Origin: Beijerinckiaceae bacterium
GTDB taxonomy: Bacteria > Pseudomonadota > Alphaproteobacteria > Rhizobiales > Beijerinckiaceae
Assembly: GCA_027533425.1 (NCBI GenBank)
Contig: JAPZUD010000006.1
Span: 1 to 64,000 of the forward strand
Length of the DNA: 64,000 nt
Reading direction: 5' to 3'
Shown here: in pieces, positions 36,400 to 40,139 of the stretch
How the letters are laid out: the number at the start of each line of letters is the position of its first letter
Position numbering within the stretch: position 1 is the stretch's first letter
Made by a program: the position numbers and the translations under genes
The notes under the pieces: generated by a model
The model's database searches: none
The model's input: only the letters and a program-made list of their open reading frames with translations
What the model was told of the DNA's origin: nothing

Positions 36400-37056
36400 T
36401 CAGTTTGGCAGCGCACCGCCATGCCTCCGGCGAGGGAAGATAGTTTCAAGGCTTTCATCGGCGGTTTCCTTGGCAACCATCGGCTCCTCGTCGGAATCCG
36501 CCGGGATCGCGACAATTTGCCCCGCAGCCGGCGAATCAACCACCGGAACCGGTTCGGATAGCTCGGCGCGTGTTTCGTCCTGATTCGCGGCAGGGGTTTC
36601 GGCCGGCAGCCCGGCCGCTTCATCGTCCGCCGGCGCCTCCGGATCCTTTTCGCCCATGATCCGCCGCAGCATGGTCGAGGGGTCAAACCCGGCCTCCATA
36701 GGACCGAAACCCGGCATGGCGTTGGGATCATTGAAATCCCACGCATATTCGGCAAATCGATCCGGCGCGCTCAGGATCGGGTCCAGCACCCACATCTTGC
36801 GCAGCGCGGCATTGCGCAACGCTTCCGGCACACCCTTCTGCAGGAACTGCGTGAAATCGCTCTCCGACGTCAGGGCCTCCAGCGGCGTGAGGGTCGAGAT
36901 GTCGAATTCGGGCTCTGCCTCGACGGGAAGCGCAGGCTCGCCCTCTGCCGCCGCAGACACCGATGACGGATCATCCGGAACCGGTGCGCCGGTCTCCGGC
37001 TCCGGCTTCAGCTTCCGCCGCGACCAGCGACTGAGAAATCCTTCGCCCTGGCTCAT
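36400..37056 (-). CDS. DUF3306 domain-containing protein
   Basis: GEGFLSRWSRRKLK...LTPLEALTSESDFTQFLQKGVPEALRNAALRKMWVLDPILSAPDRFAEYAWDFNDPNAMPGFG. Confidence 0.88.
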   Translation of the reverse strand: MSQGEGFLSRWSRRKLKPEPETGAPVPDDPSSVSAAAEGEPALPVEAEPEFDISTLTPLEALTSESDFTQFLQKGVPEALRNAALRKMWVLDPILSAPDRFAEYAWDFNDPNAMPGFGPMEAGFDPSTMLRRIMGEKDPEAPADDEAAGLPAETPAANQDETRAELSEPVPVVDSPAAGQIVAIPADSDEEPMVAKETADESLETIFPRRRHGGALPN

Positions 37057-38585: not shown

Positions 38586-39127
38586 GTCCTGTCCGTTCCC
38601 TTCAGGCCGGCCATGCCGGCAAGATCGAGTTGCTCGTCGGGCGCCTCGTCGGGCACCTCCATGAAACTGAAGGCCCGCGAATGCCGTTCATCCGTTCCCG
38701 GCAGCAGGGTCCGGAAGCGCTCGACGATCTCGCCATCCTCGACCACCCGGTGGATCGCGACAAGCACGCCGGGCCCGGGCGCCGCCAGTTCCTCGGCATA
38801 GGCAACCTCGCTTTCCGCCGCCGGCAGGGCCGCCGCGAGATCGGGCGCGCCGCAGCGTGCCACAAGTTGCTCGGCCAGCTGCCGGACCAGCAGGGACCGT
38901 TCGAGATCGGTGGCTTCGACGATCGTCGCCAGGGTTGACCAGCCGAAGCTCTCCACGCCCAGCAGGCCGGAGCGAAAGGCCGAGCGTTCCTTGCCGAGCA
39001 GCCCGTCGACCGGCTGTTCCCAGAACAGGAACGTGCCCGGCACCGCCCACTCGCCGGGCTCGGCCGCGCGCGTGAACACAAAGGCATCGGAGGGATCGAG
39101 GCGGATCGTGCGCAACAATTTCGGCAT
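38582..39127 (-). CDS. DUF6505 family protein
   Basis: MPKLLRTIRLDPSDAFVFTRAAEPGEWAVPGTFLFWE; upstream in-frame ATG at 39145 lies inside the inverted repeat, so 39127 is preferred. Confidence 0.7.
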   Translation of the reverse strand: MPKLLRTIRLDPSDAFVFTRAAEPGEWAVPGTFLFWEQPVDGLLGKERSAFRSGLLGVESFGWSTLATIVEATDLERSLLVRQLAEQLVARCGAPDLAAALPAAESEVAYAEELAAPGPGVLVAIHRVVEDGEIVERFRTLLPGTDERHSRAFSFMEVPDEAPDEQLDLAGMAGLKGTDRT

Positions 39128-39129
39128 CT

Positions 39130-39398
39130 TAGGGCGAAAACTCATAAAGGAGGCGCATTTGATGGGAGTTTCGGGGTGAAAATGGCCGGAACCGGCGCGC
39201 AGCCTTGACGTCCGTCAGGGCAAGCGTTGGTTTCGAGGCAGTTTCTCTCCGAAACCCCACCGGAGGCGCGGTGAATTTGAATCATCTTTCGCGTCCTTTC
39301 CCTCCCAAACCCGACGGTTTGCTTCGGGAAAGCCCACGAAACCTGATTGGCAAATTCCCTCGCGTCAAATGTCGCCTCCTTTATGGGTTTTCGCCCTA
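39130..39398. repeat. TA-bounded non-coding element with ~33-bp terminal inverted repeats (MITE candidate)
   Basis: Left tagggcgaaaactcataaaggaggcgcatttga (39130-39162); right tcaaatgtcgcctcctttatgggttttcgcccta (39365-39398); reverse complements apart from 1 substitution and 1 indel. Confidence 0.7.
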
Positions 39399-40139
39399 GC
39401 CCCGCGGTTCGTTGAGCAGCGGATCGAACCAGTCCGGCCGCGCCAGGGCGGGCACCAGCTTTTCCCGCGCCTGCGCCTCGCCGCCCGGGCCCTGGATCAG
39501 CAGGTCGCCATTCTCGTCGATGCCGCGCCGGCCCCTGGACTCACCCTTCTCGAGGAACGAGAGATAGCGTGGCCCGATGCCGGAAAAACCGCGCTCCTGC
39601 CAGGAATCGACCTCGACGAGAAAATGCCGCGAGAACGAGGCGGCGAATGCCGGCGGGTTCCACGCCTCGAACCCCTCGTCATCCAGCGTGGTGATTTCGG
39701 GCGCAAGGCCGACGCCGAGTTCGCGCACGCCCCCGGCCCGCACCATCGCGCCGAAGACCAGCCAGTCCGGCGTCGCCTGGTCCTCCGCCCCCGGCGGATG
39801 GCCGAGTCGCCCCCCGCCGACCAGCGCGCCATCGAAATAGAGCGAGCCGGGATAGCGGATCGTGATCGGCTTTTCCGGCGGAGAGAGCACCGAAAGCGCC
39901 TCCGCGAGGGCATTCATTCCGGCAAAGAAGATTTTCCGTGCCAGCCATAATGGCTCTTCGGGTTCGAGCACCAGGGCGAATTCGATCAGCTCGAAACGGC
40001 CGACATAGTAGAGGCTGCCCGCGCCGCGATGGGCATCCCCCGTCGCGCTGGCCCCGGCCACGGCCGCCTGGAAGGCGTCTTCGCGCTCGCGGAGGCGGAT
40101 CGGGGTGATCAGGGGCGGAAAACGTGCAATATCGTCCAT
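39396..40139 (-). CDS. Biotin/lipoate ligase-like protein (DUF4444 type) of FDH cluster
   Basis: MDDIARFPPLITPIRLREREDAFQAAVAGASATGDAHRGAGSLYYVGRFELIEFALVLEPEEPL...; start trimmed from 40682. Confidence 0.75.
   Translation of the reverse strand: MDDIARFPPLITPIRLREREDAFQAAVAGASATGDAHRGAGSLYYVGRFELIEFALVLEPEEPLWLARKIFFAGMNALAEALSVLSPPEKPITIRYPGSLYFDGALVGGGRLGHPPGAEDQATPDWLVFGAMVRAGGVRELGVGLAPEITTLDDEGFEAWNPPAFAASFSRHFLVEVDSWQERGFSGIGPRYLSFLEKGESRGRRGIDENGDLLIQGPGGEAQAREKLVPALARPDWFDPLLNEPRG

Follow-up and report, generated by a model that had tools for sequence, protein, structure and literature searches.

Organization of the locus

The window analyzed here, a 64,000-nucleotide stretch from a Beijerinckiaceae bacterium, holds between positions 36400 and 42370 an operon of genes from uncharacterized families (DUF3306, DUF6352, DUF6505, and BPL_LplA_LipB_2), divergent from a multi-cluster 4Fe-4S protein. 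In relatives, the stop codon of the BPL_LplA_LipB_2 gene, a member of the biotin/lipoate ligase family, and the start codon of DUF6505 are one base apart (...GGC TGA C ATG). Here a mobile element of 269 nt (39130 to 39398, described on the plus strand) lies exactly between the ligase gene (39396 to 40139, minus strand) and DUF6505 (minus strand, true start at 39127). Its limits, which include one duplicated TA per end, follow from the terminal inverted repeats (TIRs), the fold, and the corresponding sites in relatives.

The TIRs measure 26 bp, or ~33 bp when gapped. Their arms (39130 to 39155 and 39373 to 39398) are complementary at 25 of 26 nt with a spacing of 217 nt, and a one-gap BLAST alignment extends the complementarity to about 39/40 nt at 90%. 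The TIR pattern occurs at two places only in the window, against 0 expected from 100 shuffles. Both ends carry TA, and we found neither a conserved open reading frame nor a transposase gene inside. The initial annotation, made from the letters alone, was correct as to the placement between these two genes, the inverted repeats, the terminal TAs, and the lack of coding capacity.

It had also proposed two effects on the flanking genes that comparison with relatives bears out. The ligase gene now ends in ...GGC TAG, a stop codon (39396 to 39398, minus strand) made by the insertion from the duplicated TA and the first G of the element, where relatives have TGA. The TIR also contains a false in-frame ATG (39143 to 39145, minus strand), which lies upstream of the conserved start of DUF6505 (39127). 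The insertion has parted two genes, the ligase gene and DUF6505, that were once nearly contiguous and probably coupled in translation.

Insertion into TA sites

DUF6505 loci were located in 20 relatives, of which the nearest three (G015, G013, and G002) are collinear with the host and lack the element. The site in these three reads TGA (TCA/TGA at the position of the left TA); a TAA-type stop, one transition away, would supply the TA. Because this base differs, the locus alone is no proof of a TA duplication, and for eight sister copies we therefore reconstructed the expected empty site, the two flanks linked by a single TA, and looked for it in five genomes. Sites reading exactly flank-TA-flank were recovered for copies G015b, G015d, and G013c (in 3, 4, and 1 genomes, respectively), as the initial annotation had suggested such a check might show. 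The filled sites have two TA-type ends, one of them mutated in G015b and G013c, and what is duplicated is TA, in the contexts TTAG, CTAG, and CTAG, respectively. Relatives also lack copies G015a, G013a, and G013b at the matching sites, where the junctions are so diverged or gapped that the duplication is not readable. The element is a real insertion, and the empty sites of its sister copies establish TA as the target duplication.

The left TA in the window (39130 to 39131) is read as T|TA|G, a YTAR site, and the right TA (39397 to 39398) is its counterpart; the pattern Y|TA...TA|R is found in 36 of the 45 copies with intact ends. Judged by a crude gene call, every located copy but one is intergenic. 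Like the window copy, several share three bases with a stop codon, since the TA of a TAA or TAG stop is a natural target.

Copies and distribution

The sister species G015 and G013 each carry four full copies at unrelated sites, and about ten copies each were found in G052, G399, and G426. The initial annotation had reasoned that one element at the same site in all relatives, with no copies elsewhere, would argue against mobility; we observed the opposite, the sisters having no element at this site and several at others. Every MITE feature tested was found (TIRs, absence of coding capacity, copies at unrelated sites, and empty sites with a single TA), and the element is a MITE, as had been proposed. 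The host genome contains one full copy; apart from it, the family was seen there only as a TIR-only remnant at C11:930704 (L039, 1501 to 1550), a hairpin of ~50 bp.

We built a covariance model (R1) on 14 copies from two genera. With it, full-length copies were recovered in 22 of 397 genomes for the family and 24 of 398 for the order, the latter in 15 genera, with the host included in both counts. The three-armed architecture described below is shared by about 90 copies, mostly of 262 to 285 nt, whose pairwise identity falls as low as 41%; they come from 45 genomes, which represent 19 genera and 12 families of the order. The majority of copies measure 262 to 272 nt, and a few are shorter (164, 80, and 49 nt) or have one arm longer. 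The covariance model detects the family where BLAST fails, and genome annotations and catalogues of insertion sequences (IS) can therefore be updated with it. These comparisons define a new, structurally constrained MITE family present across one order of the Alphaproteobacteria. No prior description of it was found in the open-access papers searched, a coverage outside which most subscription journals fall.

A scan of named genomes with GCCYTGACGTCCGTCARGGC returned copies in Beijerinckiaceae and Methylocystis, plus chance matches in unrelated bacteria. Searches of phage, plasmid, and viral collections with the window copy and other subfamilies gave no match except one full-length plasmid copy in Phyllobacterium sp. 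628, between msrB and a racemase gene. In a Methylocystis metagenome-assembled genome (G030), shorter, fully palindromic forms of 49, 80, and 164 nt (the one-arm form) with TA at both ends (L224 to L227 and L157) occur beside the 269-nt form and may move independently. The same genome has many solitary ends, TAGGGCGAARACTCAT, with no partner (L216 to L223, L228, and L229); several lie directly before a likely start codon, and these ends may be relics that came to serve as the 5' ends of genes.

A three-armed fold

The window copy is predicted to fold end to end at -158 kcal/mol (z = -13.3), with the entire interior base-paired and not the ends alone; of the two strands of this copy, the plus strand (antisense to the operon) folds better. 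An outer stem of 34 bp is formed by the left TIR (39130 to 39163, its 5' strand) and the right TIR (39364 to 39398, its 3' strand), both defined by TIR match and fold. Arm 1 (39164 to 39258), placed by the minimum free energy (MFE) fold of the window copy and by covariation within two genera, is a long interrupted hairpin with its tip, GCCTTGAC-GTCC-GTCAGGGC, at 39202 to 39221. A linker (39259 to 39265) leads to arm 2 (39266 to 39363); no sequence in the family is conserved more widely than the tip of this arm (AAACC-CGAC-GGTTT, about 39307 to 39320). Copies from other genera, when folded singly, adopt the same architecture, usually with a mini hairpin of 9 to 13 nt in the linker. Across 86 copies the median z was -14; for the inner 200 nt without terminal repeats it was -6.6, with 82 of the 86 below -3.

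Covariation bears out this architecture. In a 14-copy MAFFT alignment of two genera, 95.3% of cells pair and 45 of the 95 pairs have changed on both sides, a value reached in 0 of 500 shuffles. A tree-corrected analysis (a G-test with a tree-based null on 37 nonredundant copies of 59% mean identity) gave 17 significant pairs, all 17 inside the predicted structure. Thirteen of these are in the terminal stem, where covariation is expected for any TIR, and four are in the arms (39-126 and 47-118 in arm 1; 167-203 and 168-202 in arm 2). Among 69 model-aligned matches, compensated changes were present in 92 of 95 pairs (pair counts reached in 0 of 500 shuffles), and the covariation score was 0.774 versus 0.195 in shuffled and at most 0.134 in slid alignments; this alignment is supporting evidence only, because it was fitted to the structure and contains about nine reverse-strand matches. 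Paired positions use all four Watson-Crick types, and specific internal loops and asymmetric bulges stay in place from family to family within the order.

Three copies in G052 (L135, L096, and L136) fit the covariance model almost as well on one strand as on the other; as modeled they are near-symmetric under reverse complementation, with arms 1 and 2 swapped. A kissing interaction between the GTCC loop of arm 1 and a GGAC loop of arm 2, attractive in several copies, was rejected when reading by eye showed it to be lost across subfamilies.

Constraint on DNA or on RNA

For the 86 copies, mean MFE was -159.2 on one strand and -159.3 on the other (Wilcoxon p 0.82), and G.U pairs numbered 4.2 and 4.0 per strand of about 105 (Wilcoxon p 0.29). 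Single changes in the arms of close copies produced 21 G.U and 23 A.C combinations, and uncompensated cells outnumbered compensated ones 65 to 21. Given two strands of equal folding strength and G.U pairs that are few and evenly distributed between them, the structure looks, under the folding model, to be maintained at the DNA level rather than as a strand-specific RNA. Two observations run counter to this reading. In the TIR stems of close copies, G.U changes exceed A.C changes (26 versus 10), which hints at a strand preference; a bias enters here, since plus-strand folding was used to select the pairs. In addition, a G.U (G.T) pair at the base of arm 2 (window 39266-39363; columns 196/332 of alignment A2) is kept in 52 of 67 rows, though G.U is otherwise rare.

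The conserved arm 2 pair is among the evidence for the strongest alternative, a mobile structured noncoding RNA, in which the transcribed three-armed molecule would act through RNase III processing of mRNA, as a terminator or stabilizer, or as a regulatory RNA, like Correia/NEMIS or bcr1-type repeats. Such a role would suit the extreme stability of the predicted RNA, the internal loops fixed in position across genera, and the almost exclusively intergenic location of the copies, and bacterial MITEs with long base-paired transcripts and RNA-level effects have been described (PMC2229807). A strand-specific product is, however, difficult to reconcile with strands that fold equally well and with G.U changes as rare as A.C. 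The orientation of copies to flanking genes is near even (35 sense and 24 antisense by the crude gene call, with no clear bias), uncompensated changes erode the pairing of resident copies, and a search against Rfam covariance models gave no match. We regard this alternative as unlikely. The initial annotation had raised stem compensation as an alternative to mobility; the compensation was found, the idea of an RNA structure and nothing else was not upheld, and mobility and structure are both real. That resident copies decay freely while spreading lineages stay complementary argues for constraint on the DNA fold during spread and not on an RNA of the host; what is preserved appears to be a DNA fold used in spreading, not an RNA of service to the host.

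Compensated changes at the DNA level, Watson-Crick only and strand-neutral, are also what would be predicted if complementarity were a mutational by-product, with quasi-palindrome correction (template switching in hairpins during replication) copying changes from arm to arm and no selection acting on the fold. Such correction should remove mismatches as well, yet internal loops and asymmetric bulges are fixed across families, which is evidence against pure palindrome correction. Most copies keep a total length of 262 to 272 nt, and in the arms of close copies uncompensated changes outnumber compensated ones by three to one. We consider this explanation somewhat less probable again than a functional RNA.

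Candidate mover

Elements of the IS5 family with a PF13340 transposase were found in 9 of 13 genomes tested, including G030, G052, G399, and G426. The transposase was not found in the draft genomes of the host (G000), G013, or G015; insertion sequences are often lost in draft assembly. Where the ends could be defined, these elements are 822 to 867 bp long, are bounded by C|TAGG...ACTCAT (e.g., TAGGGCCCGGACTCATAACC and TAGGCTCGAGACTCAATTGG), and have two open reading frames matching NF033580, IS5 family transposase. The end of the window copy agrees with TAGGGCCCGGACTCATAACC at 11 of 15 nt, random TAG sites having a 99th percentile of 10 and a maximum of 11 among 3000. The ends of the best subfamilies match IS5-type elements at 13 of 15 nt. 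Of the 81 element ends compared with the sampled IS ends, only 24 score as high as the 99th percentile of the null. The TAGAGGTTGTTATGG subfamily had no matching IS among the ends sampled. By sequence comparison the interior is not derived from the IS5-type elements sampled, and being unrelated to them it makes the element no simple deletion derivative.

IS711 is an insertion sequence of the IS427 type. It targets YTAR and duplicates TA (PMC2266754), and alphaproteobacterial IS427 elements are 832 to 865 bp long, mostly with 2-bp duplications and with TIRs of 13 to 21 bp (PMC3281130). The ends, the two-ORF partner type of ~840 bp, the YTAR target, and the TA duplication of our element fit the IS5 family, IS427 type; judged from sequence, the assignment is strong for target and duplication and moderate for the end sequence. 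The IS630/Tc1-mariner origin favored by the initial annotation shares the TA duplication, which IS630 elements also make, but it is highly improbable, given that DDE_3 transposases are absent from the host genome, that the IS630-type elements of relatives end in TAGAGCRTTTT..., unlike TAGGGCGAAAACTCAT, and that the YTAR preference and end sequence fit IS5/IS427.

Proposed model

We consider it likely that the element is a non-autonomous transposon (MITE) mobilized in trans by an IS427-type transposase, with a three-armed palindrome selected at the DNA level for mobility. It transposes into YTAR sites with duplication of the TA, as the empty sites show. Similarity in ends, target, and duplication makes a DDE transposase of the IS5 family (IS427 type), acting in trans, the most likely mover; this enzyme would recognize the outermost ~15 bp (TAGGGYCNNNACTCAT-like). 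The body of the element, a three-armed palindrome, could fold as single-stranded DNA or be extruded as a cruciform. Lineages that are still spreading would retain complementarity of all three arms despite sequence turnover, with resident copies decaying individually through uncompensated single changes. The simplest reading is that the DNA fold is selected for mobility, perhaps by bringing the ends together, by being exposed at replication forks, or by resisting loss.

A bolder version, possible in our view though rather doubtful, takes the three-armed DNA fold itself as the mobility signal. By analogy with attC sites, IS200/IS605 hairpins, and parvovirus ends, the family would be a parasite selected for DNA shape; its terminal sequences would change to engage different IS5-family transposases in each host, and the fold would persist across the order.

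Bacterial MITEs are usually viewed as elements that arise from a single IS by deletion and are short-lived. The noncoding element described here has kept its three-armed fold and a length of ~268 nt in at least 12 families of a single order. Two questions can now be tested: is the DNA fold of a MITE selected for transposition, and can a structured core switch transposases by way of its ends?

Comparison with known systems

The bcr1 repeats of the Bacillus cereus group are mobile, ~155 bp long, and of conserved secondary structure with compensatory changes; compared by description, they differ from our element in taxon, size, and target duplication. Bru-RS1 and Bru-RS2 of Brucella, at ~103 bp, are much shorter than the element. 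They are likewise palindromic repeats, associated with IS711 (PMC2266754), and are set beside it by description only.

Insertion sequences of the IS427 type (IS711 of Brucella; IS1248 and ISPpa of Paracoccus) resemble the element in the TA duplication at YTAR (IS711, PMC2266754) and in the TAGG..ACTCAT ends found in relatives of the host genome, whereas the MITE has no transposase and an unrelated, folded interior. The CIR repeats of Caulobacter and Brucella are also alphaproteobacterial and intergenic, with two long arms and TA termini (PMC2229807), but they are ~110 bp long, with a conserved GANTC and no end-to-end pairing (PMC2229807). A link to CIR was rejected, GANTC being depleted in the element family (34 versus 89 expected) and an outer stem being present. 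ERIC/IRU, RUP, and Correia/NEMIS are likewise small, noncoding, and intergenic, with TA at both ends and long pairing between the 5' and 3' ends (PMC2229807). From these the element differs in its size (269 versus ~100 to 200 bp), in having three long arms rather than one stem-loop, and in its conservation across an alphaproteobacterial order while the TIR sequence is free to vary.
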